Assembly (NCBI RefSeq): GCF_004331685.1
Contig: NZ_SJSM01000013.1
Coordinates: 1 to 64,000, forward strand
Length of the DNA: 64,000 nt
Source of the DNA: Pedobacter hiemivivus
Lineage (GTDB): Bacteria > Bacteroidota > Bacteroidia > Sphingobacteriales > Sphingobacteriaceae
Reading direction: 5' to 3'
The notes under the pieces were generated by a model. It saw only the letters and a program-made list of their open reading frames with translations. It did no database searches and was not told where the DNA came from. This document shows, piece by piece, positions 6,270 through 62,441 of this stretch. Made by a program: the position numbers and the translations under genes. Position 1 is the first letter of the stretch; each line of letters starts with the position of its first letter.

Positions 6270-6273
6270 TACA

Positions 6274-7990: not shown

Positions 7991-8009
7991 CGCTTCAATT
8001 TAATATTTA

Positions 8010-8774: not shown

Positions 8775-8798
8775 CTGACTGATGACCTGTAAAGGTTT

Positions 8799-28194: not shown

Positions 28195-28614
28195 TCAATG
28201 ATGATATACTCTTTCATGAGCATGCATTACCGAAGAGCTTGGTTTAATGCTTCCAAAATCTATTTTTGCTTCAGGTTTGGAGTATTGACTAAGTAATTCA
28301 GTGTACTTTTCTAAAAGTGTGATATACTTAGTCATCCAGTATTGGATGGAACAATCCTCATTTTGATCTGTTTTATTACTCACTACATCTAGTGTAGCAT
28401 GATGTTTTGCATTGGCAAATTCTTCAGGAAATTCATTTGCAAAGTCATGGTTTATTGCTTGCCCAATCTTGCAAATAGTTTCAATATTTAAATGTCCGTG
28501 CTCAAACCAGTTGTAAATGGATGTTCTACTAACATGTAGTATTCGTGATAGTTCACTGATTCCGATTTTTGTTCGAACAATGCGTTCTATCACATCCCCT
28601 TTATTAGATGTCAT
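28195..28614 (-). CDS. Small helix-turn-helix protein, left bookend of the polysaccharide locus
   Basis: A 139-residue putative DNA-binding protein. An HTH spans about residues 5-45, with ISELSRILHVSRTSIYNWFE as the clear helix-turn-helix. A helical tail follows (YWMTKYITLLEKYTELLSQ). It is a paralogue of the protein at 54122-54484: both have VIER.V, IS.LSR.LHVSR..IYNWF, ICKIG.AI..DF..EFP and YWM.KYI.LLEKY.ELLS. That alignment places the start at 28614 instead of the longer frame from 28665. It is read away from the polysaccharide genes. Its DNA target is unknown; autoregulation or control of the locus is an inference. Confidence 0.85.
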   Translation of the reverse strand: MTSNKGDVIERIVRTKIGISELSRILHVSRTSIYNWFEHGHLNIETICKIGQAINHDFANEFPEEFANAKHHATLDVVSNKTDQNEDCSIQYWMTKYITLLEKYTELLSQYSKPEAKIDFGSIKPSSSVMHAHERVYHH

Positions 28615-29251
28615 AATTAGTCTATAGTTTAGATGAAACTTACTATACTCTAAAAAAATGCTCAAGACTAGAGGGATGTGCTAATCTCTATCTAAAGTTA
28701 AGTAAAATATTATGAATGAAACAAGAGTTATTTTTTTTTTATAAACATTGTCAACTTTTGTCTACATATACAAGTGTTGAAAGTCTCAATTAATCGAAAT
28801 GGTTTTGTTGTAAATAGAGGTAATTACGGCTTTACGAGGCTAAAGGTGTTGATTTTTCTCTTTTAAAAGAAGTGATAAATGGATTCTTTTAATCTTTTAT
28901 AAAATTAATTGTAAAGCTTTTGTAAACCCATGTGTATAAATTATACAATTGTACGACAACTCTAAAAATCACTTATCTTCTTGTGATATTTTGCATAGCT
29001 TTATTTCATGAAATTAATTGTTTAGCAGATGTTTCTAAACTGAAAGCTATATATAAATGTATAGTTGAGTTATTAATTATCTGATAGATAAATTATAATA
29101 GAAGAGAAAATATTTTATTAGCTATTTTCATTCAAGAATCAGCCGATGTAACTGATGTAGCGAAGCTATATACAATAGGAGTTAAAGATGGACTCTTTTG
29201 GGACCAGAATCCTCATAATCCTTTTCAAGATCAAATTATAAACCTCATAAA
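28615..29251. promoter_or_regulatory. Long A+T-rich intergenic region heading the polysaccharide locus
   Basis: About 640 bases lie between the divergent HTH gene and the UDP-sugar dehydrogenase gene. The region is A+T-rich with a run of T near 28730, holds a 15-base palindrome at 28933-28947 and ends in an open reading-frame tail (29088-29258) that lacks a start. No single promoter stands out. It must carry the promoter(s) for the long plus-strand operon, and it is the natural place for an operator of the HTH protein. Confidence 0.5.
28933..28947. promoter_or_regulatory. 15-base palindrome, candidate operator
   Basis: TGTATAA-A-TTATACA is a perfect inverted repeat around one central base. 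It lies about 320 bases upstream of both divergent genes' coding starts. It is A+T-rich and could arise by chance, so the operator role is only a suggestion. Confidence 0.25.
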
Positions 29252-32957: not shown

Positions 32958-34109
32958 ATGAAATACATTAGGATAATTATTCTATTTTTAATTTTCTGTA
33001 ATCTTCCAAGTTATTTTTTGGCTAAGAGTAGTGCGTCCTTAGGTCAGCTTTTCAGCTATAGCACTTTTCTTCTTATAATAGTGTATTATATTTTTAGTAA
33101 AACTAAGAAGTTAATAGTTCCATTTGTTGTTTTAGGATTTTTATTCTTTTTGATCTCCATATTGGTAAGTGCAGATAATACTCAGACTTATCTAGTAACT
33201 CTAGTTAAGTATTTTATTGTCGTAATTATGGGCGCAATTGTAGTAAGTGATACAACTAAGGAAGAAATGTATATAGTCCTTTTACTAGGATGTTTAAGTA
33301 TAATTTACGAATCTATGTTTATAGAGGGCATAGGTGGTAGGTATAGGGGATTTTACTTAAATCCTAATGCCGCAGGTTACGCTTGTATATTGGGTTACTG
33401 TTTGAGCTTTTCTATAGATAATAGAAAACTAAAAATTGCTGGTCAATTGTTGTTTTCCATTGCGGGCTTTATGACTTTCTCCAGGACATTTTTGCTGATT
33501 TGGGTGTTAATTAATCTGTTTTCATTATTTATTAGTTATCAAAATGTTTATAAAATTATTGTGGGGGTGGTTTTGTTTAGCTTGTTTCTTTCTTTTGGTA
33601 GTAAATTAGATTTAAGTGCTAAAAGATTGCACGCTTTTTCAGGTATACTACAGGGAAAAGTAAATGATGATTTAAAAGAAGAGTCCAGAGAAGAAACTTG
33701 GTCACATTATTACAATAAGCTTCTAATTAACCCTGTTCTTGGCAATGGCTACCATTCTTTTAGTGGAGAAACGTTTGGGCGGGGAAACAATACATTCACC
33801 ATTCATAATGGTGTACACAATACATTTTTAATGATAATGGGTGAAGCTGGATTTTTTGTGCTATTATATTTTACATGGATTTACGGAGGCTTTTTAGTTA
33901 ATGGTTTTAGGATGTTTGGCAGTAATCCAGTAATTTTTTTTGTTTCATTTTCCTTAATAATGTACATGCTCACAAACCATAATTATTTTGAAAATAACTT
34001 GGTGCTGTTTGTTTCCATGTGGATCTATATTCAAATAGATAAGTGGAAAAACAATGAGGTTGAGACAACATTTGGTTATAAGTTAAACTTATCAAATCAA
34101 AGTATTTAG
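32958..34109 (+). CDS. O-antigen ligase/polymerase-like membrane protein (Wzy/WaaL), copy 1
   Basis: A 383-residue protein with about ten to twelve membrane segments and the Wzy_C/O-antigen ligase region in its C-terminal half. The periplasmic loop holds LGNGYHSFSGETFG and HNGVHNTFLMIMGEAGFF, the His-containing motif of the family. It is clearly paralogous to the protein at 48302-49387, from the first residues (MKYIRIIILFLIFCNLPSY) onward. It probably polymerises repeat units; ligation is the alternative. Its stop is three bases before the asparagine-synthase gene. Confidence 0.85.
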   Translation: MKYIRIIILFLIFCNLPSYFLAKSSASLGQLFSYSTFLLIIVYYIFSKTKKLIVPFVVLGFLFFLISILVSADNTQTYLVTLVKYFIVVIMGAIVVSDTTKEEMYIVLLLGCLSIIYESMFIEGIGGRYRGFYLNPNAAGYACILGYCLSFSIDNRKLKIAGQLLFSIAGFMTFSRTFLLIWVLINLFSLFISYQNVYKIIVGVVLFSLFLSFGSKLDLSAKRLHAFSGILQGKVNDDLKEESREETWSHYYNKLLINPVLGNGYHSFSGETFGRGNNTFTIHNGVHNTFLMIMGEAGFFVLLYFTWIYGGFLVNGFRMFGSNPVIFFVSFSLIMYMLTNHNYFENNLVLFVSMWIYIQIDKWKNNEVETTFGYKLNLSNQSI

Positions 34110-42255: not shown

Positions 42256-43659
42256 ATGGAAAGATTGAGAAAAAATTTGAAAAACGTGTGTGTACTAAGT
42301 GTATTGCTGTCAGCAGTTTTAATGTTTAGTCAATGTAAAAAAGATAGCCCTGCAGTTCCTGAAGAGTTGTCTGGTAGTATTAATGATACCGGATATGTGA
42401 GTGGAGATGGGTCATCTAGTACGTCAGTGATGACAGTAAATGTATCACAAGCTGTATCTGACGGAGGTTTTGCAGTTAGAATTCCAATGGATTCTAAATT
42501 AATTAGTGATACGAATGATAAACCTACAGTATCTACTGTTAAAGTATTTGAAAATGGTGTTGAAATAGGCCCTGCGCATACTTCACATGAAGAGATCAGA
42601 ACTAAAGGAAAAGGACGTTTCAGTCATAAAACAGGTTTCTTATTCCTATCGGCTTCGGACAATTCAAATCCGAAAACAAACGGTAAGAAATATACTTATA
42701 CCGTAAATGGACAAACTCCTACAACGCCGCCCACAACACCCCCTACAACTCCAACAGATCCTACAACTCCAGTTGCTCCAGTTACGGGAGACGTGCCAAT
42801 TGGTTATGCATCTGTTAATGGTCAAACAACCGGTGGTAAAGGTGGTCAAACTGTAACAGTAACAACTTTTGCTGCACTACAAACAGCTGTAGCTTCGAGC
42901 TCACCGATGATTATCCAGGTTTCAGGAACAATTACTGGTACAGGATTACTTCGTGTAGCTTCAAATAAAACTATACTTGGCCTTAAAGGATCAAAGTTGA
43001 TCGGTGCAAGTTTGTTTATTTACGGAAAGAACAATATTATTATCAGAAATATGAATATCAGTAAAGTGAAGACCTATTCAAACATTATTATAAAAGAAGG
43101 TTCTCACCACATCTGGGTAGATCATAATGAACTTTCATCAGAGCTTGTAAGTGACTGGGATTATTACGATGGATTGCTAGATGTTGGAACTGGTGCTGAC
43201 TATATTACTTTATCATGGAATAAACTACATGATAATCATAAAGCAATGCTAATTGGCTTTAGCTATACTGAACCAGAATCTGTTGGTAAACTTCATGTTA
43301 CCGTACATAATAACTACTTCTATAATGTTTCAGAGCGTTGTCCAAATGTAAGATATGGAACTGTTCACGTATTCAATAACTACCTTGACAATGCTGGATT
43401 TATGAGCTCATTGATGGGTGCAACAGTTAGAGTGGATAACAATTATTTCAAAAATACAACGCTTCCAATCAGAACGGAGCTTAGTCCGCAAGCTGGCGTT
43501 ATTAGTGGTTTAAGCACCAATATATTTGATAACTGTGGTAAAAATATCATTACTACCGCTGCTTCAAGCTGGGTGCCAACTTACGAATACAAAACTGGAT
43601 TCAATACTGCAGCAAATGTTCCAGCGGTTGTTACCAATGGATCAGGTGCAACATTATAA
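42256..43659 (+). CDS. Secreted pectate lyase, PL1 family, lipoprotein-like
   Basis: A 467-residue exported polysaccharide lyase. Residues 1-26 form a signal sequence with Cys27 at a lipoprotein-type site (VLMFSQCKK, imperfect lipobox). Residues about 30-150 are an uncharacterised domain, 154-176 a Thr/Pro-rich linker, and 180-467 the parallel beta-helix pectate lyase. Signatures are HHIWVDHNE (284-292), DGLLDV (305-310), HDNHKAMLIG and RCPNVR (361-366), which fits the RxPxxR catalytic motif. It should cleave alpha-1,4-galacturonan by beta-elimination. It sits directly after the UDP-glucuronate epimerase gene, carries its own leader hairpin and downstream hairpin, and is the only extracellular hydrolytic enzyme in the locus. 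Confidence 0.9.
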   Translation: MERLRKNLKNVCVLSVLLSAVLMFSQCKKDSPAVPEELSGSINDTGYVSGDGSSSTSVMTVNVSQAVSDGGFAVRIPMDSKLISDTNDKPTVSTVKVFENGVEIGPAHTSHEEIRTKGKGRFSHKTGFLFLSASDNSNPKTNGKKYTYTVNGQTPTTPPTTPPTTPTDPTTPVAPVTGDVPIGYASVNGQTTGGKGGQTVTVTTFAALQTAVASSSPMIIQVSGTITGTGLLRVASNKTILGLKGSKLIGASLFIYGKNNIIIRNMNISKVKTYSNIIIKEGSHHIWVDHNELSSELVSDWDYYDGLLDVGTGADYITLSWNKLHDNHKAMLIGFSYTEPESVGKLHVTVHNNYFYNVSERCPNVRYGTVHVFNNYLDNAGFMSSLMGATVRVDNNYFKNTTLPIRTELSPQAGVISGLSTNIFDNCGKNIITTAASSWVPTYEYKTGFNTAANVPAVVTNGSGATL

Positions 43660-44910: not shown

Positions 44911-45963
44911 ATGGCTCATATAGAAAATTATTTACCCGCTCTGGAATACAAAGTAATTACGAGTGAAAGCCCTGACAAATGGCTTAATTATGTCAGAAAA
45001 GCAGTTAATTATGATTTTTACCATACCCTTCATTATCACACTTTAGATAAAAGAGGAGACCCAATTCTCTTTGTTTACGAAGAGGGAGAAACATTCATTG
45101 CTTTACCTCTTCTAAAAAGAAGGATTGAGCTTGTAAATTATAGCGATTTTACTTCAAGCTATGGATATGCTGGCCCTATTTCTAATGAAAAATTTGAGTT
45201 ACTTAGCAACAGCTTGATTGAAAACTTTAAGAATTCTTTTTTCAGTTTTATGAAGGATAATCAAGCTGTAAGTGTGTTTTCCAGATTAAATCCATTTATC
45301 AATCAATCTTTCTTATTAGAAAAAATAGGGGGGCTCAGGAGCAACGGAAGAACTATATATATGGATTTGACGCAATCATTAGAAGAGCAAAGAGCAAGAT
45401 ATGATAAAAGATTATATCGGCAAATCCGTCAACTTCGGAAAAAGGAATACCTCATAAAAGAAGCCAATACCCAGGAAGAGATTCGACTATTTACCAGCAT
45501 GTACAATAAAAATATGTTAAGGCTTTCAGCCGATAAAAGCTATTTTTTTGACGAAGCATATTTTACTTCCTTACTTAATAATCCAGACTTAAAATGTACC
45601 TTAATATTGATATACGATGGTGATGAAATGATTTGCGGATCCACCATAATATGGACAGACAGCATTATTAGAAATCACTTATCGGCAACTAGCGCGTCAC
45701 ACATCCACTTATCTCCAAGTAAGCTATTAACGGATGAAATTAGTGTAATTGGGAGAACGCTTGGTATGAAGTATTTTCATTTGGGTGGTGGTGTTGGAGG
45801 TAAGGAAGATACTCTATTTATGTTTAAATCACTATTTTCTGATCTCTTTTTAAAAGACTATATCTGGTGTTATATTGCTGATGAACAGATCTATGATCAA
45901 TTGGTTGAGCAAAAAAAGGTCAATCCCGATAGTAATTATTTCCCCTTGTACAGAAGTATTTAG
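44911..45963 (+). CDS. FemAB/GNAT-fold acyltransferase (Acetyltransf_6), copy 1
   Basis: A 350-residue member of the FemAB-related double-GNAT family, whose known members attach amino acids or acyl groups to amino groups of cell-wall precursors or sugars. The N-terminal half has YDFYHTLHYHTLDKRGDP, and the C-terminal half holds HLSPSKLLTDEISVIGR and MKYFHLGGGVGGKEDTLFMFKS, the conserved acyl/tRNA-site-like segment. It is paralogous to the genes at 49451 and 51028. The start is set at 44911 because the longer frame overlaps the preceding transferase and the paralogues begin equivalently. The donor is unknown. Confidence 0.8.
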   Translation: MAHIENYLPALEYKVITSESPDKWLNYVRKAVNYDFYHTLHYHTLDKRGDPILFVYEEGETFIALPLLKRRIELVNYSDFTSSYGYAGPISNEKFELLSNSLIENFKNSFFSFMKDNQAVSVFSRLNPFINQSFLLEKIGGLRSNGRTIYMDLTQSLEEQRARYDKRLYRQIRQLRKKEYLIKEANTQEEIRLFTSMYNKNMLRLSADKSYFFDEAYFTSLLNNPDLKCTLILIYDGDEMICGSTIIWTDSIIRNHLSATSASHIHLSPSKLLTDEISVIGRTLGMKYFHLGGGVGGKEDTLFMFKSLFSDLFLKDYIWCYIADEQIYDQLVEQKKVNPDSNYFPLYRSI

Positions 45964-45980
45964 AACTAAATTATATACTC

Positions 45981-46784
45981 ATGAAAAATAAATTTAACTA
46001 CGCGGAAGCTACTGTAGCTGATTTCGAAAGTGCAGTTGGTCAATATGGCTGGGTTGTTTATGAGAATGCTTTAAGTGAGGAATTGGTAGATGGAATAATA
46101 AATGACTTTACTGGTGCTTATGATACAAGGCGTCAGATTCAAATAGAAAATGGCATTGATACCAGTATGGAGGGAACACTCCATCACGTATTAGAGCGAG
46201 ACAATTTTGGATTATATTTTTTAGAACAAATGTTTTGTGACAAAGAAATGCGCCATTTTTTAGATGGAAAATATATTTTAAACGGAATGAGTGGGGTTAT
46301 TAATATGAAAAATGACCGTCCATATGTTCAAAATGTACATCGTGATTTAAGAACCTTTACTGGCAATTTAAAAATGATGATACAAATGATTGTGTTGTTA
46401 GATGATTTTACTCTTGACAATGGTGCAACTTATTTACTCTCTGGTTCACATAAAGAGGATGTTAAACCCGATGATGAATATTTCTATAAACATGCTGATC
46501 GGGCAATTGCAAAAAGAGGCAGTATTATTTTATTTGACTCTAATTTATGGCATGCTGCGGGTAAAAATTATACAGAAAACCCACGGAGAGTAATTACGCT
46601 AAGTTTTACTAAACCCTTCTTTAAGCCTCAATTTGATTTTCCGAGATTCTTAGGGTACGAATTTGGAGAAACGCTTAGCGAAGATTTGAGACAAGTTGTT
46701 GGTTATAATGCACGCATCCCAGCAAATCTATATGAATTTTATCAACCGGTTCATTTAAGAATGTATCAACCTGGACAAGGTTAA
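45981..46784 (+). CDS. Phytanoyl-CoA dioxygenase family (Fe(II)/2-oxoglutarate) protein
   Basis: A 267-residue double-stranded beta-helix oxygenase. The iron-binding HxD...H triad is seen as His-Arg-Asp in NVHRDLRTFTG and the distal His in SNLWHAAGKN; Arg for the 2-oxoglutarate carboxylate is in NPRRVITLSF. All residues needed for activity are present. In sugar loci such enzymes can hydroxylate sugars, acyl groups or amino acids. It lies 17 bases after the FemAB-like gene and before a PLP-fold gene, suggesting synthesis or modification of a side group of the polysaccharide. Confidence 0.85.
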   Translation: MKNKFNYAEATVADFESAVGQYGWVVYENALSEELVDGIINDFTGAYDTRRQIQIENGIDTSMEGTLHHVLERDNFGLYFLEQMFCDKEMRHFLDGKYILNGMSGVINMKNDRPYVQNVHRDLRTFTGNLKMMIQMIVLLDDFTLDNGATYLLSGSHKEDVKPDDEYFYKHADRAIAKRGSIILFDSNLWHAAGKNYTENPRRVITLSFTKPFFKPQFDFPRFLGYEFGETLSEDLRQVVGYNARIPANLYEFYQPVHLRMYQPGQG

Positions 46785-46813: not shown

Positions 46814-47785
46814 ATGCAAGCGCAAAAGTCACAAACTAAAAGTATGGGCGGGTATTTTCAACTACATCTCGCTAATGGCAGGGAATATTATCCAGATCTC
46901 ATCAAGTTAAATACCTCAAGAAATGCTTTGCAGTACATTCTTGAAGTTAAAAAGTACACGAAAGTATATATCCCATACTTTACTTGCGAAGTTTTACTGG
47001 AGCCTATGGTAAAATTGAATATTCCATATCAATTTTACCATATTGATGCACAACTGGAACCCATATTTGATTTTGAAGTTGGATCAACAGAATGTGTTGT
47101 ATACAATAACTATTTTGGGCTAAAACAAGATGCTGTAAAGAAATTAAGCGATACTGTTCCTCATTTGATTATTGATAATGCGCAGGCCTTTTTTTCAGAA
47201 CCAGTCCCTAAAATAGACACTTTTTATTCTTGTCGAAAATTTTTCGGCGTTCCAGATGGCGCCTATCTTCAAATCAATTCGGATGAACGCTTATCCCCTG
47301 AAAACGATGTTTCTACCAATCGGTTCTCTCATTTGATTACAAGCATTGATCATAGTATAGAGCATGGTTATGCCGATTTTATAGAGAATGAGCTGGACTT
47401 TATCGGTAATGAAATTAAATCAATGTCTTCGTTAACACAAGCTGTTCTTTCAAATATTGATTACCAAGTTTGCAAAAATAGACGCATCGAAAATTTTACC
47501 TACTTACACGAAAAATTATCCTCTATTAATGAGTTAGGTATGGAGTTTCCAACTTCAACACCAGCGATGCTTTATCCTTTATTGATTTCAAAAGCTGATG
47601 TAAAAGCAAAACTCTTAGAGAAAAAAATATTTGTTCCTACCTATTGGCCTAATGTTTTTAGATGGACTACCCAGGATACACTAGAGTATAAGTTAGCCAA
47701 AAACGTAATTTACCTACCGATGGATCATCGTTATGATTTAGAGGATATGGCTTATATGCTAGCTGTTTTAACTAAAATTATATGA
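46814..47785 (+). CDS. DegT/AHBA-synthase-fold PLP protein, short variant
   Basis: A 323-residue protein, shorter than usual DegT aminotransferases (about 370-400). The fold type I marks are present: VYIPYFTCEVLLEP, LIIDNAQAFFSEP with Asp121 and Gln124 where PLP is bound, and YSCRKFFGVPDGAYLQ with Lys142 as the likely Schiff-base lysine. The usual GEGG after the lysine is replaced by VPDGA, and the arginine-rich substrate part is missing, so it may act on an amino-acid-like or acyl substrate, or be non-catalytic. Its stop overlaps the next GNAT gene by four bases. Identity as an aminotransferase is inferred from the fold. Confidence 0.7.
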   Translation: MQAQKSQTKSMGGYFQLHLANGREYYPDLIKLNTSRNALQYILEVKKYTKVYIPYFTCEVLLEPMVKLNIPYQFYHIDAQLEPIFDFEVGSTECVVYNNYFGLKQDAVKKLSDTVPHLIIDNAQAFFSEPVPKIDTFYSCRKFFGVPDGAYLQINSDERLSPENDVSTNRFSHLITSIDHSIEHGYADFIENELDFIGNEIKSMSSLTQAVLSNIDYQVCKNRRIENFTYLHEKLSSINELGMEFPTSTPAMLYPLLISKADVKAKLLEKKIFVPTYWPNVFRWTTQDTLEYKLAKNVIYLPMDHRYDLEDMAYMLAVLTKII

Positions 47786-48279
47786 CTCCTATATACATAA
47801 GACCATTGGTATTAGCTGATGCCAAAACATCATTTAACTGGCGTAATGATCCTGAAGTATGGGAGTACACCGAGTACCAGCCCGATCTGTATATATCGCC
47901 AGAGCTAGAAGAAGAATGGCTGAAAGCTAAATTAAGCAGAGTAAATGAAAAAAGATTTGCAATTTGTTTAGAAGAAAATGATCAATACATAGGCAATATT
48001 CAATTACTCGATATTGATGGCGAAAAAGCCTCTTACCATATATTTATTGGAGAAAAGAGCTTTTGGGGGCGGGGTATTTCGCAAAGTGCCACAAAACTCA
48101 TATTAGCCTATGCTTTTTCAGAATTGAATTTGGAAAACGTTTCATTGGAAGTAAATCCGTTAAATGTACCAGCTTGGAAAGCCTATCAAAAAGTAGGTTT
48201 TGAATCTATAGGCGAAAATAAAAAAAATGGGTTTATGAAGATGGCAATCAGCAAAAATGAGTTTTTAACCATACTGTAG
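47782..48279 (+). CDS. GNAT N-acetyltransferase (RimJ/RimL-like)
   Basis: A 165-residue single-domain acetyltransferase. Its opening RPLVLADAKTSFNWRNDPEVW and the acetyl-CoA loop KSFWGRGISQSATKLILAYAF are typical of the RimJ/RimL subgroup, which also contains sugar N-acetyltransferases of amino-sugar pathways. It could acetylate a 4-amino sugar. Its ATG overlaps the stop of the DegT-like gene by four bases, so the two are likely translated together and may act in sequence. Confidence 0.88.
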   Translation: MTPIYIRPLVLADAKTSFNWRNDPEVWEYTEYQPDLYISPELEEEWLKAKLSRVNEKRFAICLEENDQYIGNIQLLDIDGEKASYHIFIGEKSFWGRGISQSATKLILAYAFSELNLENVSLEVNPLNVPAWKAYQKVGFESIGENKKNGFMKMAISKNEFLTIL

Positions 48280-48301: not shown

Positions 48302-49387
48302 ATGAAATATCTTAGGTTACTCATTTTGCTATTAATTTTCTGCAATCTACCGAGTTATTTAATGGTCCATATCAACCCTGCAGTTGGATCGATTTTAAGT
48401 TACAGCACTTTTTTATTGATCATTATTTATTACTTATCTACAGATCATCATAAACCCGTAATCCCCTTTATTGTATTTGGACTTTTATTCTCTTTGATTT
48501 GCCTGATCGTTAGCTCCCACTTCTTCGAGATGCTTTTGGTCACTTTTATGAAGTATTTTGTTTTTATAATAATGGTGTCCAATTTAGTAAGGGATGTCAA
48601 AAACACGGATATATATTGTCTGCTACTTATTGGGAGTTTAAGCATAATTTACGAAGCTATTTTTGTAGTAGGTATAGGAATGGGGAGCACTGGTTTTTAT
48701 TTAAATGCAAATTTTGCTGCTTATGCCTGCCTTTTAGGTTATATTTTCGGTTTGTCAATAGAAAATCAAAAGCTTAAAATAGCCGGGCAAATTTTGTTTT
48801 CTATTGCTGGTCTGGTTACTTTTTCACGAACATTTTTGTTGATATGGTTATTGATCAATCTTTTGTCTGTATTTGTACATTATAAGAACATTTATAAAGT
48901 AGCCATGTGCGTGGCTTTGTTTGTTGTATTTCTAGTTTTTGGCGATAAATTTGATTTCTCCAGCAGTACAGAAACATGGAGATACTATTACGATAAAATT
49001 CTAAGCAATCCAATTTGGGGCAATGGATATCATTCGTTTAGCAAAGAAAGCCTGCACAATACATTTTTAATGATCATGGGTGAAGCAGGAATTTTTGCCT
49101 TACTCTATTTCATGTGGATGTATGGATACCTGTTGGTTAAGGGCGTACATTATTTTAAAGATAATCCAATAATTTTCTTCTTATCATTTTCGTTGGTCCT
49201 GTTTATGTTAACAGAACATAGCTATTTTGATAATTATTTAGTATTGTTTATTTCACTATGGCTATATCATGAAACATATAAGTTGAGGGATGCCCGGCGG
49301 CAAAAAGAAGTCATATTCACTAGATCCACGAAAAAGAATAAAGAATCAAATAAAGAAAATCTCCTGAAGCACTACAGCTTGAATTAA
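48302..49387 (+). CDS. O-antigen ligase/polymerase-like membrane protein (Wzy/WaaL), copy 2
   Basis: A 361-residue polytopic membrane protein paralogous to the protein at 32958-34109. The first 20 residues (MKYLRLLILLLIFCNLPSYL) and later blocks (LGYIFGLSIENQKLKIAGQ, GNGYHSFS, LHNTFLMIMGEAG) are almost the same in both. A segment of about 30 residues in the periplasmic loop of copy 1 is absent here. It retains the His-Asn motif, so it appears functional. It might polymerise a second repeat unit or act as the ligase. Confidence 0.83.
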   Translation: MKYLRLLILLLIFCNLPSYLMVHINPAVGSILSYSTFLLIIIYYLSTDHHKPVIPFIVFGLLFSLICLIVSSHFFEMLLVTFMKYFVFIIMVSNLVRDVKNTDIYCLLLIGSLSIIYEAIFVVGIGMGSTGFYLNANFAAYACLLGYIFGLSIENQKLKIAGQILFSIAGLVTFSRTFLLIWLLINLLSVFVHYKNIYKVAMCVALFVVFLVFGDKFDFSSSTETWRYYYDKILSNPIWGNGYHSFSKESLHNTFLMIMGEAGIFALLYFMWMYGYLLVKGVHYFKDNPIIFFLSFSLVLFMLTEHSYFDNYLVLFISLWLYHETYKLRDARRQKEVIFTRSTKKNKESNKENLLKHYSLN

Positions 49388-49433
49388 AGGAGGTCGGCCT
49401 TTTTAACGCGGAAAATTGTAACCGTATTATTTA

Positions 49434-50515
49434 CTGCAAAAACTAGTATTATGATTAAAGTAATTACCTTATCCCAAAAAGAGGAATGGGATTTCTATGT
49501 TAAGAATGCCTTTATTCATGATTTTTATCATACCTGGCATTATCATACCTTGGATGAAAGCGGTGTTGCCATTCTTCTGGTTTACGAGGAAGATGGAGAT
49601 TTTATTGCATTTCCTTGTTTGAAAAGGAAGATCCCAGACTCATCTTTTTTTGATTTAAGTTCCGTATATGGTTATGTAGGGCCAATAGCTAACAAAGAAA
49701 ATCAATACTTAAGTGAAGCTCTGATAAGCAATTTTAAAAAAGCATTTTTAAACTTTCTGAAAAATGAGCAAATAGTTTCGGTCTTCTCCAGGTTACATCC
49801 TTTTTTTGATCAAGATAGACTGGTGAGTGGTTTTAACGGAATTTATGAAAATGGAAAGACAGTAGCACTAGATTTAACTTTGCCTATTGTATCTCAACGT
49901 AAAAAATATAGTTCCTCGACCTATCGTGCTATTAGAAAAAGTTGGAAAAGAGGCTTTTCAATAAGAGAAACAAAACAGGACGCAGATGTCAATACGTTTA
50001 TTGATATCTATTTGGAAAACATGGCGCGCATTAACTCTACAGATTATTACCTATTTAGCAGGCAATACTTTTTTGATCTGATTAACTCCAATGATTTCGA
50101 TTGTCGTTTGCTGTTGGTGAGTTTAAAAGATGAAGTCGTATGTGGTATGATCATTACTTTTACGCATGGCATTATTCAGGCGCATCTGGTAGGCACTAAA
50201 GAAGCCTACCTAATTGAATCCCCAGCTAAACTTTTAATAGATGAAATTACGGTCTTAGGTCGTAAAGAGGGAATGAAATATTTGCATCTCGGTGGTGGGC
50301 TAGGCTTTAGAGAAGATACTTTATTTAATTGGAAATCATCTTTCTCCGACCTTTTTCTGGATTATAAAAGCTTCCGACATATCGTTAATGATTCCGTTTA
50401 TCAGACTCTGGTTCAGAAACAAAGAATTGAAAAAAATGCAACTATTGATTTTTTTCCACTTTATCGTGCTGTAGCTAAGGTTTTAGCATACAACTGTTTT
50501 GAGTTAATAATCTGA
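49434..50515 (+). repeat. Tandem duplication, unit A (FemAB-like gene with its leader)
   Basis: The 17 bases before the gene and the coding sequence itself closely match those at 51011-52068, with the same codons in long stretches. The two starts are 1577 bases apart, in the same direction, with a small GNAT gene between them. The similarity extends upstream of the ATG (CTGCAAAAACTAGTATT against CTGAAAAAACTAGCGTT), which indicates a DNA-level duplication. Confidence 0.8.
49451..50515 (+). CDS. FemAB/GNAT-fold acyltransferase (Acetyltransf_6), copy 2
   Basis: A 354-residue paralogue of the proteins at 44911 and 51028. It begins MIKVITLSQKEEWDFYV and contains HDFYHTWHYHTLDESG, KRKIPDSSFFDLSSVYGYVG and the C-terminal LIDEITVLGRKEGMKYLHLGGG, all shared with copy 3. 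The family attaches acyl or aminoacyl groups to amino groups. It is separated from copy 3 by one small acetyltransferase gene. Divergence between copies 2 and 3 is spread over the length and concentrated in the middle, which suggests a shift in substrate. Confidence 0.82.
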   Translation: MIKVITLSQKEEWDFYVKNAFIHDFYHTWHYHTLDESGVAILLVYEEDGDFIAFPCLKRKIPDSSFFDLSSVYGYVGPIANKENQYLSEALISNFKKAFLNFLKNEQIVSVFSRLHPFFDQDRLVSGFNGIYENGKTVALDLTLPIVSQRKKYSSSTYRAIRKSWKRGFSIRETKQDADVNTFIDIYLENMARINSTDYYLFSRQYFFDLINSNDFDCRLLLVSLKDEVVCGMIITFTHGIIQAHLVGTKEAYLIESPAKLLIDEITVLGRKEGMKYLHLGGGLGFREDTLFNWKSSFSDLFLDYKSFRHIVNDSVYQTLVQKQRIEKNATIDFFPLYRAVAKVLAYNCFELII

Positions 50516-50547
50516 TTGTTCTGTTATATTTCAAACCCAATCTCAAA

Positions 50548-50958
50548 ATGAAATCAAAAATTTACGACATGATGTATCCATTGATCAATGATGGCAGTGG
50601 AACATATGAACTTGGTGATTTGAATGGTTACATTGATAAAATCATCGAAAAGGGATGTTTAATCTCTATAATGGAGAACGATGTTTTACTTGCTTTCTTG
50701 GCATATTACGCCAACGACTACGAAAATAAACTTGCGTTTGTATCAATGGCGGTAGTTTCACCTTCAACACGAAAAATGGGGTATGGAAGAAGGCTGGTTG
50801 ATTTTTGTTTTGTCGATTTAATTTATAAAGGCTTTAAAAGATGCCTTACTGAAGTAAATGCGAACAATCAAGCTGCATTGAATGCCTGTAAGAAGCTTGG
50901 ATTTAATGAATTTGAAAGAAAAGGTAAATATATAGTTTTGGAAAAGTTGTTGTCGTAG
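50548..50958 (+). CDS. Small GNAT N-acetyltransferase
   Basis: A 136-residue GNAT. The acetyl-CoA-binding loop is SPSTRKMGYGRRLVDFCF near residue 75, and the C-terminal NNQAALNACKKLGFNEFER is the family's final strand-helix. It lies between two duplicated FemAB-like genes. A sugar N-acetyltransferase role is plausible from context, but any small amine could be the substrate. A second GNAT of this kind is absent after copy 3, so if the pair was duplicated together one partner was lost. Confidence 0.83.
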   Translation: MKSKIYDMMYPLINDGSGTYELGDLNGYIDKIIEKGCLISIMENDVLLAFLAYYANDYENKLAFVSMAVVSPSTRKMGYGRRLVDFCFVDLIYKGFKRCLTEVNANNQAALNACKKLGFNEFERKGKYIVLEKLLS

Positions 50959-51010
50959 TTGTCTTAATAGGAGGGGGATCCCTTCAACAAGAAGAATAGT
51001 GTCCGTAGTA

Positions 51011-52068
51011 CTGAAAAAACTAGCGTTATGATTAAAGTAATTACATTATCTCAAAAAAAGGAATGGGATTTCTATGTCAAAAATGCATTTGTTTATGATT
51101 TTTATCATACCTGGCATTATCATGCCTTGGACAAAAGTGGTATTGGTATCCTTTTGGTTTACGAGGAAGGTGGCGATTATATTGCATTTCCTTGCTTAAA
51201 GAGGAAGATTCCAGACTCATCTTTTTTTGATTTAGGTTCCGTATACGGTTATGTGGGACCAATAGCCAATAAGGAGAATCAATACTTAAGTGAGGTTCTG
51301 ATAAATAACTTTAAAAAAGCATTTTCAAACTTCCTTGAAACGGGGAAAATTGTTTCGGTCTTCTCCAGGTTGCATCCTTTTTTTGATCAGGATAGACTGG
51401 TTAGTGGTTTTAACAAGGTTTATAAAAATGGGAGGACAGTGGCGCTAGACTTAACTTTGCCTATTGATTTTCAACGCAAAAAATATAGTTCAGACACCTA
51501 TCGTTCGGTAAAAAGAAGTTGGAAAAAGGGATTTTTTATTAGGGAAAGTAAGGAGCTTGGGGATATTGATGTCTTTATTGAAATGTATGCAGAAAATATG
51601 CAACGTATTGAATCTACAGACTATTACTTGTTTAATCGGCAGTACTTCCTTGATCTAATTAATTCAACTGAATTTGATTGTCGCTTATTATTGGTTTGTG
51701 TCAATAATGAAATCATGTGTGGGACGATTGTTACTTTTACCCATGGCATTATTCAGGGACATTTGATTGCAACCAAAAGTTCATATTTAAGGGAATCTCC
51801 TGCTAAATTTTTAGTGGATGAAATTAGCCTGTTGGGGCGAAATGAAGGAATGAAATATATGCACCTTGGAGGGGGGCTTGGCTTAAAAGAAGATTCATTA
51901 TTCAAATGGAAATCTTCATTCTCAGATCTATTTCTGGATTATAGAAGTTTACGACATATCGTTAATCATTCTGTTTATGACCTGTTGGTTAAACAACAAG
52001 GGATTGATAAAGATGCGAATGTTGATTTCTTTCCACTTTATCGCGCTGTGGTTGAGGTTTTAGCGTGA
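51011..52068 (+). repeat. Tandem duplication, unit B (FemAB-like gene with its leader)
   Basis: Second unit of the direct duplication beginning at 49434. The match starts 17 bases before the ATG and runs through nearly the whole gene. It ends just before the 4,6-dehydratase gene. Confidence 0.8.
51028..52068 (+). CDS. FemAB/GNAT-fold acyltransferase (Acetyltransf_6), copy 3
   Basis: A 346-residue protein, nearly identical to copy 2 over its N-terminal 100 residues (DFYHTWHYHALDKSG, SVYGYVGPIANKENQYLSE) and close at the C-terminus (FLVDEISLLGRNEGMKYMHLG). All conserved family positions are intact and no frameshift is seen, so both duplicates are probably expressed. The donor and acceptor are unknown. 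It stands directly upstream of the nucleotide-sugar 4,6-dehydratase gene, which would provide the 4-keto precursor of an amino sugar. Confidence 0.82.
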   Translation: MIKVITLSQKKEWDFYVKNAFVYDFYHTWHYHALDKSGIGILLVYEEGGDYIAFPCLKRKIPDSSFFDLGSVYGYVGPIANKENQYLSEVLINNFKKAFSNFLETGKIVSVFSRLHPFFDQDRLVSGFNKVYKNGRTVALDLTLPIDFQRKKYSSDTYRSVKRSWKKGFFIRESKELGDIDVFIEMYAENMQRIESTDYYLFNRQYFLDLINSTEFDCRLLLVCVNNEIMCGTIVTFTHGIIQGHLIATKSSYLRESPAKFLVDEISLLGRNEGMKYMHLGGGLGLKEDSLFKWKSSFSDLFLDYRSLRHIVNHSVYDLLVKQQGIDKDANVDFFPLYRAVVEVLA

Positions 52069-52101
52069 AGTTGTTTCAATTAATAATCTAATTATTTTTT
52101 T

Positions 52102-54054
52102 ATGAAAAAACTAATGTTCGGCGACAAAACGTATTCGCGCTGGTTGATCTTATTGATAGATCAAATTATTATTATTTGGACTCTTTTTATGTCTTTCTTG
52201 TTAATTAACAAGTTCGAGTATACGCAGCTATTTTATATAAATACCTTTATCTATATTGGGTTATATAGTTTAGTCTCTGTTGGTGTATTCATGAGCATGC
52301 GCATACATACTGGCATCATTAGGTATTCTAATACACAAGATATTATTCGAATATTTATGGCAGTATTGTTAACTAATTTTGTTTTTGCCATTGTAATCAA
52401 AGTATGCTCAGTCTTACACTTCTATGCGCCATCTAAATGGGTTCCAGAAGTATTGATTATGAATTTTTTCGTATCATCATCATTATTAATTATTTTAAGA
52501 GTCGTTGTAAAGAGCTTATTTGTTTTCATAAGGGCACTGGAGCCTACCGAGAAGAAAGAGAATATTTTAATATATGGCTCCGGTAGTGATTCAATTTTAG
52601 TTAAAAAGGCTTTAGAGGGCAGTCAAGGTAATGCGTTAAATGTAATCGCTTTTGTTGATGATAATGAAGACAAACTAAACAAATATATCGAACAAAAAAA
52701 AGTATATCATTCCAAATCCATTGAGACCTTAAGGAATAAATTCAATATTAGTAAGGTCCTTTTTGTAAGTGATGATTTAAACGTAAATGGTAAAAAAAGC
52801 ACTTTAGATAAATGCATTGAGTTAGGCATAAAAGTAGTCACTGTACCACAATCTAATAAATGGTTGTATGGTAAATTAACGCCAAATCAAATTAAAGACT
52901 TAAAAATAGAGGATTTATTAGATAGAGAGCCCATTGTACTTACAAAAAGTAATATTTTGAGAGAGATGGTTGGAAAACGGATTTTGATTACTGGGGCTGC
53001 GGGCTCAATAGGATCAGAAATTGTCCGTCAGATTGTAAACTTTAATCCGGAGTTCGTTGTCCTTTGCGATCAGGCAGAAACACCTTTGCACGATTTGCAA
53101 TTAGAGATTGAAGATGATTTTCCTCATGCAAAAACACATGTAGTAATGGCTAATATTCAGAATAGGTCCAGAATGAAAGCCATTTTTGATGAATATCATC
53201 CACAAATCATTTTTCATGCAGCAGCCTATAAACATGTACCAATGATGGAAAATAATCCGTCTGAAGCCATATTAACCAATGTACTTGGGACAAAAAACTT
53301 ATCGGATTTAGCCATAGAGTCTGGCGTAGAAAAGTTTATAATGATTTCAACAGATAAAGCCGTTCGGCCTACAAATATAATGGGCGCATCCAAACGTCTT
53401 GCCGAAATGTATATACAATCCTTAAACAATGATAGGGCTTTGTCCATATCGAGTGATCAAGTAGAGCAGGTAGATGCTAAAGTCGAAAATAGAACTAAAT
53501 TTATTACCACCAGATTTGGCAATGTATTAGGTTCTAACGGGTCAGTAATACCTCGATTTAAGGCACAGATAGAACGTGGCGGACCGGTTACAGTTACGCA
53601 TCCGGAAATAACAAGATATTTTATGACTATACCGGAATCGGTTCAATTGGTGCTCGAAGCCGCGGCCATGGGGAATGGGGGCGAGATCTATATTTTTGAT
53701 ATGGGTGAACCCGTTAAAATCGTTGATTTAGCGACTAATATGATCAAATTGGCGGGCCTATCTCCTGACAAGGATATTAAGATTATTTTTACTGGATTAA
53801 GGCCTGGCGAGAAGTTATATGAAGAGTTATTACTTGTAGAGGAGCAAATAATCGCTACTTATCATCCAAAAATTAAAATATCTAAAACAATTAGTCTTAG
53901 CATTCGTTATGTGCAGGAGGTAATTGAAGAATTACTATTTCTTAACAACCTAAATAACGATTATGCTATGGTTAAAAAGATGAAAGAAATAATACCTGAT
54001 TATAAAAGTAAAAACTCGAGATATGAAAAAATAGACTATTACATTATTAACTAA
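52102..54054 (+). CDS. Membrane-bound nucleotide-sugar 4,6-dehydratase (PglF/WbpM/CapD-like)
   Basis: A 650-residue protein with four N-terminal membrane helices (about 15-140), a CoA-binding-like Rossmann domain (about 150-280) and an extended SDR domain. NAD motif is TGAAGSIGSE at 297-306. The usual catalytic Tyr of YxxxK is replaced by Met427 in MGASK (Lys431), and STDKAV at 416-421 is present. This M-x3-K form marks PglF/WbpM-like UDP-GlcNAc 4,6-dehydratases. Its product would feed the DegT aminotransferases of the convergent operon. It is the last biosynthetic gene of the plus-strand run. Confidence 0.92.
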   Translation: MKKLMFGDKTYSRWLILLIDQIIIIWTLFMSFLLINKFEYTQLFYINTFIYIGLYSLVSVGVFMSMRIHTGIIRYSNTQDIIRIFMAVLLTNFVFAIVIKVCSVLHFYAPSKWVPEVLIMNFFVSSSLLIILRVVVKSLFVFIRALEPTEKKENILIYGSGSDSILVKKALEGSQGNALNVIAFVDDNEDKLNKYIEQKKVYHSKSIETLRNKFNISKVLFVSDDLNVNGKKSTLDKCIELGIKVVTVPQSNKWLYGKLTPNQIKDLKIEDLLDREPIVLTKSNILREMVGKRILITGAAGSIGSEIVRQIVNFNPEFVVLCDQAETPLHDLQLEIEDDFPHAKTHVVMANIQNRSRMKAIFDEYHPQIIFHAAAYKHVPMMENNPSEAILTNVLGTKNLSDLAIESGVEKFIMISTDKAVRPTNIMGASKRLAEMYIQSLNNDRALSISSDQVEQVDAKVENRTKFITTRFGNVLGSNGSVIPRFKAQIERGGPVTVTHPEITRYFMTIPESVQLVLEAAAMGNGGEIYIFDMGEPVKIVDLATNMIKLAGLSPDKDIKIIFTGLRPGEKLYEELLLVEEQIIATYHPKIKISKTISLSIRYVQEVIEELLFLNNLNNDYAMVKKMKEIIPDYKSKNSRYEKIDYYIIN

Positions 54055-54121: not shown

Positions 54122-54484
54122 ATGGATTTAAATGTAGGTAAAGTAATTGAGCGCGCTGTTAGGAGAGATCATATGGGAATAAGTGCGCTATCAAGAAAAT
54201 TACATGTTAGTAGAAGAACCATATACAATTGGTTTGATCAGGAATCTTTAAGCTTTGAGATTATCTGTAAGATTGGGAATGCCATTAAGTATGACTTTTC
54301 AAAGGAATTTCCGGACGATTTTGCTCGTATTGACGACGAAATAGGAAGCAATATGAATCAATTTACAAATGGAGACAACAGTTCACCGGAATCTTTTTCA
54401 AGCTCCGTCAATTATTGGATGAACAAGTACATCAAACTACTCGAAAAATACAATGAGTTGTTAAGCCATAAATTTCCAACTTGA
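54122..54484 (+). CDS. Small helix-turn-helix protein, right bookend of the polysaccharide locus
   Basis: A 120-residue protein with the HTH at about 8-45 (MGISALSRKLHVSRRTIYNWF) and a C-terminal helical tail (VNYWMNKYIKLLEKYNELLS). It is a paralogue of the protein at 28195-28614 over both parts. The tail is conserved, so it probably forms a dimer or contacts a partner. It is the last gene of the plus-strand run, 67 bases after the 4,6-dehydratase, and is followed by a perfect palindromic terminator. A regulatory role in the locus is inferred. Confidence 0.85.
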   Translation: MDLNVGKVIERAVRRDHMGISALSRKLHVSRRTIYNWFDQESLSFEIICKIGNAIKYDFSKEFPDDFARIDDEIGSNMNQFTNGDNSSPESFSSSVNYWMNKYIKLLEKYNELLSHKFPT

Positions 54485-54588: not shown

Positions 54589-55836
54589 TTACTCCACGTG
54601 TAATAATTGCTGTAATTTGTTGTTTTTAAGTTGTAATTGTACTGCACTGATCACAGCATCAATAACGTAATCGGTATCTTCATTAGTTAGATTGGGATAA
54701 ATAGGCAATGAGATCTCGCAAGCATACTGTTTATAGCTGTTTGGATAATCGGCAATATTATACCCAGTTTTCTTGAAGTAAGTTAACATAGGCATAGGTA
54801 TGAAGTGGACATTTACAATTACCCCATGGCTAACGATTTCTTCAATAATTTGATCTCTTTGGGCTTCCGTAATATTCTTTATGCGCAAAGGAAAAATATG
54901 ATAAGAAGTCTCTCTTGTAAAATCTTCTAGTGATGGTGGGATGAACCAACTATAGCTACTAAAAACATCGCAATATTTTGTGGCGATGGTTTTACGCGCT
55001 GGCAATAAAATATTTTTGTATTGTTTTATCTGTGCCAGGCCTATTGCTGCACAAACGTCTGGCATATTGATTTTTAAGCCTTTATATAAAATATCATATT
55101 TCCAGTTACCACCTTTAGATTTGGTGTAAGCATCTTTGTTTTGGCCATTTAACGAGAATATCTTTAAGAAATCATATTCCTCTTCGTGATCAAAATTACC
55201 AGGTAAATTTAGGCATATGCATCCGCCTTCTCCTGTAGTGATATTTTTTACAGCGTGAAAGGAAAATATGGTAATGTCACAGCATACTGCAGCAGAATGT
55301 CCCATATATGTTGCACCAATAGAATGGGCTGCATCCGAAATTAAAAGTATTCGACCCAATTTTCTTTGTTTTTCCGAATCCGGTACAAATAAACTTCTAA
55401 CCTTGGGGCCTTTAAGTAAAGCTTTGATCATATTGTAGTCGCATGGCCAACCAGCAATATCAACAGCGATTATTGCTTTTGTTTTTGAAGTAATAGCCTG
55501 CCTTATACGCTGCGGATCTATGGTTAGGTCATCTGATATATCAACCATAACCGGAGTGGCGCCACAATGCATTACACACAGCGCAGTGGCACTATAAGAA
55601 TATGCAGGTATAATAACTTCATCCCCTTCTTTTACGCCAAACCATTTTAACATCATGATTGCGCCCGAAGTCCATGAATTTACACAGATCGCAGTTTTGG
55701 ATTTTGTTAAGCGAATAACCTCTTTCTCAAGCTCTTTTACCTTTGGCCCCGAAGTAATCCATCCTGATTTAAGCGAATCTACTACCTCATTAATTACATT
55801 TTGGTCAATAAACGGCGGTGAAAATGAAATGTTCAT
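54589..55836 (-). CDS. DegT/DnrJ/EryC1 aminotransferase (ArnB-like)
   Basis: A 415-residue PLP aminotransferase for sugar amination. Visible are the opening FSPPFIDQNVINEVVDSLKSG, EVIIPAYSYSATAL, the PLP aspartate in ILLISDAAHSIGAT and the Schiff-base lysine in FSFHAVKNITTGEGGCI. These match ArnB/PseC/WecE-type enzymes. It could aminate the 4-keto product of the 4,6-dehydratase. It is the last gene of the minus-strand operon and ends before the palindromic terminator. A second aminotransferase lies directly upstream. Confidence 0.92.
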   Translation of the reverse strand: MNISFSPPFIDQNVINEVVDSLKSGWITSGPKVKELEKEVIRLTKSKTAICVNSWTSGAIMMLKWFGVKEGDEVIIPAYSYSATALCVMHCGATPVMVDISDDLTIDPQRIRQAITSKTKAIIAVDIAGWPCDYNMIKALLKGPKVRSLFVPDSEKQRKLGRILLISDAAHSIGATYMGHSAAVCCDITIFSFHAVKNITTGEGGCICLNLPGNFDHEEEYDFLKIFSLNGQNKDAYTKSKGGNWKYDILYKGLKINMPDVCAAIGLAQIKQYKNILLPARKTIATKYCDVFSSYSWFIPPSLEDFTRETSYHIFPLRIKNITEAQRDQIIEEIVSHGVIVNVHFIPMPMLTYFKKTGYNIADYPNSYKQYACEISLPIYPNLTNEDTDYVIDAVISAVQLQLKNNKLQQLLHVE

Positions 55837-55892
55837 ATTCTTATATTTTAAAAGGTGAATAGAATTTTGTAAGATGCCTGTATGGCAGAAAC

Positions 55893-57074
55893 TTAAGAGA
55901 GAGAATCTTTTTTGGGGAGGAGTTCGTTAATTTCTGTTTCAATTTTATCCGCGATCTGCAGTCCGAAATCTTTCTTCTCTGCAGGAGCTGCCAATTCATA
56001 ATTTTGTGTTCTTTGGATGATACGGCAAATCAAGTCCAGATCTGGAAGCGTTAAAGTGTGGTAAAGTGGCAAACAAACTATTTTTTTCACTACATCGTCG
56101 CATATGGGTACATCCGTATGGTTAACGTAGGGTAGGGTGGCAAGAGATGGCGAAAAGTACCTGCGACAATATATTTTAGCGAGCTCGAGTTTCACCATAC
56201 ATTTTTGTCTCAGTGTTTCCGATTCAAACAATACTGGGAAATAAGCATAATTATAATCTTTATCGCGATTTAGCTTTGGAAAAGTTGCTTTTACATTTTC
56301 TAATCTTTCAAAATAATGTAGCGAAAGTTCCTTTCTTTTTTCCAGTATTTGGTCAACGTGTTTTAGATTGCAAAGCCCCATAGCGGCATGAAACTCACAA
56401 TTTTTACCATTTACACCAAGACCTTCGAATGTTTCCGGACCATTATGTCCAAAATTTCGCATGTACAACATCTTTTTCAACAAGTCCGGATCCTTAGTAA
56501 AAACAGCCCCACCCTCAATCGTATGAAACAATTTAGTCGCATGGAAGCTCGTAGTACTAATATCACCATATTCAAATACAGATCTATTCCTGTACTTCGT
56601 GCCGAAACAATGTGCTCCGTCGTAAATAACCTTTAAACCATATTTGTCAGCTATTTTTTGGATCGCATCTATATCACATGGATTTCCATAAACATGGGTA
56701 GCCAGTATAGCCGAAGTATGAGATGTGATTGCCGCTTCAATTTTTGATGGGTCGATGTTAAAAGTTTCAGGGTCTATGTCAACATACACAGGTTTGCAGC
56801 CTTCCCAAACAATACTACTTGTGGTAGCAACATAAGAAAAAGGCGTAGTGATTACCTCACCGGTAAGCTGTAAGGCCCTAATGGCCAGTTGTAATGCAAA
56901 AGTGCCATTACAAACATATAACAAGTGTTTTATATCTAAGTACTCCTTAAGTTTTAATTCAAGGTCATTTAGTAAAGGGCCATTATTTGTGAGCCATTGA
57001 CGTTCCCAGATACTATCAAGATATTCTCTAAATTCTTCTTCCTTTGGAAGAAATGGTTTGGTTACAGGAATCAT
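55893..57074 (-). CDS. DegT/DnrJ/EryC1 aminotransferase (VioA/WecE-like)
   Basis: A 393-residue PLP enzyme with opening TKPFLPKEEEFREYLDSIW, ITTPFSYVATTSSIVWEG, PLP aspartate in KVIYDGAHCFGT, and Schiff-base lysine in TTSFHATKLFHTIEGGAVF. The sequence resembles VioA/FdtB-type transaminases of dTDP- or UDP-4-keto-6-deoxy sugars. A tail of about 25 residues after the catalytic domain (KDFGLQIADKIETEINE) is an addition. It is followed by the other DegT gene after 56 bases and preceded by the UpxY gene. Two transaminases suggest two different amino sugars. Confidence 0.92.
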   Translation of the reverse strand: MIPVTKPFLPKEEEFREYLDSIWERQWLTNNGPLLNDLELKLKEYLDIKHLLYVCNGTFALQLAIRALQLTGEVITTPFSYVATTSSIVWEGCKPVYVDIDPETFNIDPSKIEAAITSHTSAILATHVYGNPCDIDAIQKIADKYGLKVIYDGAHCFGTKYRNRSVFEYGDISTTSFHATKLFHTIEGGAVFTKDPDLLKKMLYMRNFGHNGPETFEGLGVNGKNCEFHAAMGLCNLKHVDQILEKRKELSLHYFERLENVKATFPKLNRDKDYNYAYFPVLFESETLRQKCMVKLELAKIYCRRYFSPSLATLPYVNHTDVPICDDVVKKIVCLPLYHTLTLPDLDLICRIIQRTQNYELAAPAEKKDFGLQIADKIETEINELLPKKDSLS

Positions 57075-62366: not shown

Positions 62367-62439
62367 GATTCCTTAGCTCAGCTGGTAGAGCATTACACTT
62401 TTAATGTAGTGGTCCTGGGTTCGAATCCCAGAGGGATCA
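62367..62439 (+). tRNA. tRNA-Lys (anticodon UUU)
   Basis: The 73-nt cloverleaf folds completely. GATTCCT pairs with AGGGATC in the acceptor stem (one G-U), the D arm is GCTC/GAGC, and the anticodon loop CTTTTAA places UUU at 62400-62402. The TTCGAAT T-loop lies between CTGGG and CCCAG. The discriminator base is A62439; CCA is not encoded. It is flanked by its own -7 element and terminator. Confidence 0.97.
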
Positions 62440-62441
62440 CG

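Follow-up and report, generated by a model that had tools for sequence, protein, structure and literature searches.

An old pair of FemX-like genes with mosaic divergence in a multi-Fem exopolysaccharide locus of Pedobacter hiemivivus

In Staphylococcus aureus, the transferases FemX, FemA and FemB each add their own residues, in order, as outlined in the excerpt of PMC6428869. HfsK of the Caulobacter holdfast is a FemX-like double-GNAT protein in polysaccharide biogenesis according to the cited portion of PMC5362036, and tRNA dependence is described for GNAT-fold relatives such as Orf11 and DhpH-C in a passage of PMC12945691. We compared these systems with a 64 000-nucleotide stretch of Pedobacter hiemivivus DNA (hereafter the window), which carries three Fem genes inside a long Wzx/Wzy-type exopolysaccharide locus on the + strand; below, FemA, FemB and FemC denote the window proteins unless another organism or a solved structure is named. 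A literature search, made mostly without subscription journals, found nothing on this Fem exopolysaccharide cassette.

The three genes, all on the + strand, encode FemA (44911–45963, 350 residues, with the earliest in-frame ATG at 44863), FemB (49451–50515, 354 residues) and FemC (51028–52068, 346 residues). Each open reading frame is unbroken and each product passes the cut-off of 22 for PF13480 (Acetyltransf_6; 23.2, 36.1 and 24.5 bits, respectively), so that the original prediction of three intact genes, with a third paralogue at 44911, is borne out. No other PF13480 match exists in the assembly of 6.58 Mb (E 0.001), and FemB used as a query against its own genome (E 0.01) matches only FemA, itself and FemC. 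The more specific families are not reached: FemB scores 21.7 bits against a cut-off of 24 for the Pfam FemAB family (PF02388), with FemA and FemC unlisted at E 0.001, and FemB and FemC score 24.5 and 19.3 bits against 260.35 for the XrtA/PEP-CTERM FemAB equivalog (TIGR03019), with FemA unlisted. We claim that these proteins work like FemX, without assigning them to the Pfam FemAB family. FemA shares 45% amino-acid identity with each of the other two and falls in a different class (class A) from FemB and FemC (class B2). FemC aligns as a duplicate of FemB whose C-terminal tail stops eight residues short.

Among the other products of the locus are a nucleotide sugar dehydrogenase of TviB type (NF011729 at 595.6 bits, cut-off 592), a Wzx-like flippase (PF13440), an asparagine-synthase-like amidotransferase (TIGR01536, above cut-off) and several glycosyltransferases. 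Around the Fem genes, the order is pectate-lyase-family gene, FemA, PhyH, DegT0, gnatP, Wzy, FemB, gnatS, FemC and PglF. PhyH (45981–46784, +; PF05721) is a PhyH-family oxygenase. DegT0 (46814–47785, +) has no Pfam match at E 0.001 and is assigned by fold as a short sugar-aminotransferase-like protein; all 50 fold matches listed for its model (pLDDT 88.9) are PLP-type, with modest TM values of 0.55–0.66, and nearly all are named sugar aminotransferases, for example WbpE. The Wzy-like polymerase (48302–49387, +) has no Pfam match of its own but is 50.7% identical over 381 columns to a second Wzy-like gene product of this locus, a paralogue at 32958–34109 that matches Wzy_C; this pair has a dS of 2.7 and is more diverged than FemB and FemC. 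A PglF-like nucleotide-sugar dehydratase (52102–54054, +; PF02719; PseB 184 bits, below the cut-off of 407.75) follows FemC, and DegT aminotransferases are found at 54589–57074 by Pfam. The pectate-lyase-family protein (42256–43659; PF00544) is built into this biosynthetic operon. Small proteins that look HTH-type by eye, paralogues with 50% identity over 115 columns, flank the polysaccharide locus at 28195–28665 (−) and 54122–54484 (+). A tRNA-Lys (ttt) lies at 62367–62440, about 10 kb past the Fem genes, and the reading frame at 115–576 resembles, by its sequence, a transposase end.

A Fem match (E 1e-30) occurs in 50 of the 145 genomes of the genus, including the present one. The other 49 genomes with a match were all included and yield 55 relative loci, or 56 with the window; the copies counted are those within the fetched stretches, and further Fem pieces of genome G040 on other contigs are left out. 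Labels in the 55 loci, assigned by the best BLAST hit to window proteins and therefore able to catch paralogues, are PglF in 49, GT4d in 48, galE-like in 47, PhyH in 46, pectate-lyase-like in 46, DegT0 in 44 and gnatP in 38, and the PglF label comes after the last Fem in 47 of them. The same order, with gaps, is found in loci of Sphingobacterium, Mucilaginibacter, Desertivirga, Arcticibacter and Daejeonella among the best 80 of 307 matches, which correspond to 76 named loci that partly repeat the 55 from Pedobacter. The operon is thus present in several Sphingobacteriaceae genera.

The Fem sequences of these loci fall into old classes. A tree of 110 rows separates class A (29 rows, SH-aLRT 99), class B2 (35 rows, 97) and class B1 (44 rows, 93), with modest support for B1 (92 in a tree with Sphingobacterium). 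FemB and FemC lie inside B2 together with the sequences of genomes G163 and G170 (SH-aLRT 100), and the branching inside this set is not resolved; when Sphingobacterium rows are added in a quick tree of 85 chosen rows, FemB and FemC are sisters (SH-aLRT 89). With the class of each locus read from the 110-row tree, 41 of the 56 loci have exactly two genes, and in every one of these the two belong to different classes (B1+B2 in 17, A+B1 in 14 and A+B2 in 10). The remainder comprise B1 alone (7), an outlying type (2), A+B1+B2 (3), A+B1+B2+B2 (genome G026), B1+B1+B2 (genome G009) and the A+B2+B2 of the window, so that the copy number per locus ranges from one to four. The two B1 rows of G009 (L066) are a single Fem broken into pieces with several stops. 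By these counts, intact-looking pairs of one class occur only in the window and in G026, and the window arrangement is unusual. Recent copying was rejected as the origin of the adjacent Fem pairs in other Pedobacter, where the 17 B1+B2 loci join two old classes. Among the best 80 of 307 matches, four Sphingobacterium loci are near the window type, and three of them carry class A and two B2 genes of different subclades. By the trees, the three genes of the window go back to two ancient splits between classes and a single later duplication. The 41 of 41 two-gene loci with different classes support the view that the Fem classes behave as distinct functions.

The differences between classes are concentrated in one part of the protein. 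In alignment A1 (61 of the 110 rows, with loci L066, L070 and L099 outside the counts), pairs matched for an overall identity of 0.42–0.55 show 0.53–0.56 in residues 156–295 and 0.50 in residues 1–155 when both members belong to one class, compared with 0.43–0.47 and 0.49–0.50 when they belong to different classes; the pairs are not independent, and this contrast is a description and not a test. On a fixed tree, with the rows of these three loci again outside the counts, the three branches that separate the classes account for 1.12% of the total length for residues 1–155, 2.98% for residues 156–295 and 4.08% for residues 296–345. Together, these values suggest that the presumed tRNA-facing domain carries most of what sets the classes apart.

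FemB and FemC share 262 of 346 residues (75.7%) and 79.3% of their DNA. The dS is 0.93–0.98 by NG86 and YN00 and 0.71 by LWL85, about 0.94 overall, with a dN/dS of about 0.14, which indicates purifying selection. The longest exact run is 29 bases. These values leave the original prediction of close copies standing as duplicates, and rule out that the duplication is recent; the pair is old and mosaic. Of the 17 upstream bases said to be copied along with the genes, 14 match, and the similarity extends for about 60 bases (49388–49450 for FemB and 50959–51027 for FemC, both +), with a local alignment score of 39 against a shuffle maximum of 24. Identity, dS, dN/dS and the upstream similarity together argue that the two genes are real and constrained but old duplicates. 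Although they are neighbours, they are not strictly tandem, as had been proposed, because a GNAT gene (50548–50958) intervenes. Downstream of the two genes, 28 similar-looking bases score 32, equal to the best shuffle (32), and the hairpins upstream of FemB and FemC are as stable as those of shuffled sequences (z of −0.02 and 0.20). With regard to a plasmid origin, positions 49388–52101 have no match in the plasmid collection.

To describe the mosaic, we used as a reference the single class B2 gene of G163, the nearest relative. First, in codons 1–150, FemB and FemC are 86.0% identical in DNA (dS 0.61), compared with 73.8% and 74.9% to G163. From codon 151 on, the values converge at 74.0% for FemB/FemC, 74.5% for FemC/G163 and 72.2% for FemB/G163, and from codon 301 on FemB and FemC are closer again (79.4%, against 70.6–73.8% to G163). 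MaxChi places a break at codons 155–160 (permutation p 0.0005; 0.0045 on third positions alone), and its two-break version delimits codons 160–293 as the diverged stretch (p 0.005). Among five other pairs, FemB/G163 gives p 0.026 on all variable sites, and none reaches that on third positions. The gap in FemB/FemC protein identity between residues 1–155 and 156–295 is 0.187, which exceeds that of all 84 class B2 control pairs. Recombination between the copies, which the original prediction had proposed to test, is suggested by the MaxChi break, but the AU tests reject no rival grouping (p 0.157–0.165 for codons 1–150, 0.20–0.24 for codons 1–118 and 0.06–0.52 for later parts), and in trees of the later part FemC groups weakly with G163. 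Domain 1 is more similar than domain 2 between the old classes too, so part of the mosaic could reflect uneven constraint. We consider partial gene conversion after the old duplication a likely but not proven cause. Between B1 and B2, conversion of domain 1 in general is not seen: identity within a genome falls below the cross-genome mean in 12 of 21 pairs, equals it in 2 and exceeds it in 7. Fem genes f2 and f3 of G026 (0.66 against 0.52) form a possible second case.

One alternative is that FemB and FemC catalyse the same reaction and the duplicate is kept by dosage or chance, under birth-and-death drift, which is compatible with either donor. At the 74 columns where at least 90% of rows agree, FemB deviates in 2 and FemC in 3, and the low dN/dS and the similar first halves agree with a common reaction; copies are also lost elsewhere, as in the broken copy of G009 and in S. 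puteale, which has one Fem fewer than S. yanglingense and S. nematocida. Faster change in domain 2 of FemB has weak support (16 changes versus 8, p 0.15; 0.029 with G163 alone and 0.60 with G170 alone), and by eye the majority of these 16 seem conservative. However, domain 2 is only 66% identical between FemB and FemC, the same as between FemB and G163 (FemC/G163 0.76), and none of the 41 other two-gene loci pairs one class with itself. We regard a shared reaction as somewhat unlikely.

The fold bears on the donor. The model of FemB (61 rows) has a pLDDT of 92.7, and its best fold matches are FemX, FemA and the tRNA-dependent peptide synthases Sba18 and Sbb17 (Z 23.8–25.5); Foldseek also places these synthases among the closest folds. 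The alignments with FemX and FemA (Z 24.0–25.5) cover up to residues 1–342 and show two GNAT domains in the FemX arrangement, at 13–16% identity. The next matches are MprF and related synthases (Z 16.6–18.9) and 2hqy, a protein with function not known (18.3). FemX is also recovered by a profile search (E 6.8e-05), in which the alignment is confined to domain 2 and places a query lysine opposite FemX Lys305. This counterpart is a lysine in 61 of 61 rows, including all three window copies, and corresponds to the candidate catalytic residue K295 of FemB. Pairwise phmmer against solved structures at E 1 found no relative. Taken together, the predicted fold and the invariant lysine favour tRNA-dependent aminoacyl transfer over generic acyl transfer. 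The amplified acyltransferase of the original prediction is partly supported: one family has multiplied in one surface-polymer locus, but the indicated substrate is an aminoacyl group from tRNA and not a generic acyl group. Conversely, the Fem proteins might be N-acyltransferases that use acetyl-CoA, acyl-CoA or acyl-ACP and place a plain acyl group on exposed amines of the polymer, an option left open for HfsK. PF13480 bears the name of an acetyltransferase domain and occurs in 10 of 14 control genomes, and the operon also contains two ordinary GNATs; yet the closest folds, by a wide margin, are tRNA-dependent enzymes, the first acetyl-CoA enzyme among the matches, VipF, reaches a Z of only 16.3, and the Lys305 counterpart is invariant. 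We therefore judge a plain acyl donor to be unlikely.

The two ordinary GNATs differ in their distribution. The PseH-like gnatP (47782–48279, +; PF13302; PseH 58.1 bits, below the cut-off of 93.1) has relatives in nine Pedobacter genomes that form the N-terminal part of a fusion protein with a class B1 Fem (513–515 residues; loci L054, L067, L082 and L091–L096), and these fusions, which the label count of 38 of 55 leaves out, tie gnatP and Fem to a single pathway. The small gnatS (50548–50958, +; PF00583) lies between FemB and FemC. It is 25% identical (32/130) to the other GNAT of the locus and PF13480 is not among its Pfam matches, in agreement with the earlier description of an unrelated gene. 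At E 1e-12, gnatS is matched in 1 of 145 genomes of the genus, its own, and in 12 of 400 genomes of the order drawn evenly; ten of these 12 come from one other genus, Mucilaginibacter (for example G394, G447 and G323). In Mucilaginibacter sp. RYN_310 (L181), a relative with 70% identity comes after FemA-PhyH. From its mainly Mucilaginibacter relatives and the FemA-PhyH-gnatS arrangement, gnatS was probably acquired and may be part of the Fem pathway; the same arrangement weakens the notion of a random passenger. In ten further loci of gnatS relatives, no neighbour matches a window protein. Two Mucilaginibacter-type genomes carry different genes at the same site, a Fem in L124 (around 8001–9062) and a gnatS relative in L195 (around 6040–6450), which is one of these ten loci, flanked in both genomes by 455-residue oxidoreductase-like and 243-residue methyltransferase-like genes (named by eye). 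That FemB or FemC is instead a class B2 gene from a related strain set beside the resident one is quite improbable: the higher identity of FemC to G163 than to FemB in domain 2 (with weakly agreeing later-part trees), the Mucilaginibacter-type GNAT between the genes and the kinship of the operon with Sphingobacterium across genera speak for it, and their sister position in the quick tree and the upstream bases common to FemB and FemC, but not to G163, speak against it, while the AU tests do not separate the topologies.

Lastly, we consider how these features may fit together. We give an even chance to the explanation that FemX-like, aminoacyl-tRNA-dependent transferases modify an exopolysaccharide precursor and that FemB and FemC are an old class B2 duplicate, half homogenised, with a diverged middle. 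The Fem proteins would transfer the amino acid of an aminoacyl-tRNA to an amine group of the precursor. The acceptor is probably an amino sugar, which the PglF-like protein (4,6-dehydratase-like), the DegT aminotransferases and the PseH-like GNAT would make and acetylate, judging from their family labels. The location of the Fem genes in a polysaccharide operon argues against the peptidoglycan stem peptide as the acceptor. Classes A, B1 and B2 would be ancient and each responsible for a distinct step. The first half of FemB and FemC would later have been homogenised, probably by gene conversion, and the middle, which covers most of GNAT domain 2 and faces the tRNA in FemX, would have diverged towards distinct specificities. 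Against this explanation, GNAT folds use many donors and the acceptor chemistry rests on family labels; the FemX profile match covers one domain, phmmer finds no solved relative and PF02388 stays below its cut-off; and the tree incongruence is not significant and the acceleration in FemB domain 2 is weak. The earlier observation is partly confirmed and its interpretation partly supported; selection for several modifications of the polymer is inferred. A doubtful extension is that the cassette uses charged tRNAs to assemble a short peptide side chain on the exopolysaccharide, much as FemX, FemA and FemB do on peptidoglycan, with one residue per Fem class and a cap added through acetylation by gnatP; the number and class of the Fem copies (A, B1, B2 and the nascent B/C split) would in that case determine how long the chain is and what it consists of.

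If the tRNA-dependent explanation is right, these bacteria decorate an exopolysaccharide with the help of charged tRNAs of the translation machinery, through a cassette that occurs in several genera. The duplicate would also be a case in which partial gene conversion maintains similarity in one domain while the presumed specificity domain diverges. The natural series of Fem copy numbers makes the idea of tRNA-based decoration testable. Of greater interest than the duplicate itself, which is modest, is the conserved exopolysaccharide cassette with its several Fem genes and features of tRNA-dependent transferases.

Among known systems, the XrtA/PEP-CTERM FemAB protein shares an exopolysaccharide setting, and its weak profile match to FemB and FemC lies far under the cut-off. 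Sba18 and Sbb17, streptothricin-type peptide synthases whose tRNA dependence is taken from PDB titles, are among the closest folds to FemB; they and other natural-product transferases with GNAT folds act on small molecules and not on polymers. HfsK, compared by its description in the cited portion of PMC5362036, resembles the window proteins in its FemX-like double GNAT and polysaccharide setting, but is reported to be a c-di-GMP effector with a C-terminal extension, and that portion mentions no multi-copy cassette. Finally, in comparison with FemX, FemA and FemB of Weissella and Staphylococcus, the window genes differ in their place in an exopolysaccharide operon beside a dehydratase, an aminotransferase, an oxygenase and a GNAT, and in their low sequence identity; they share the double-GNAT fold, the counterpart of Lys305 and the presence of several paralogues per organism.
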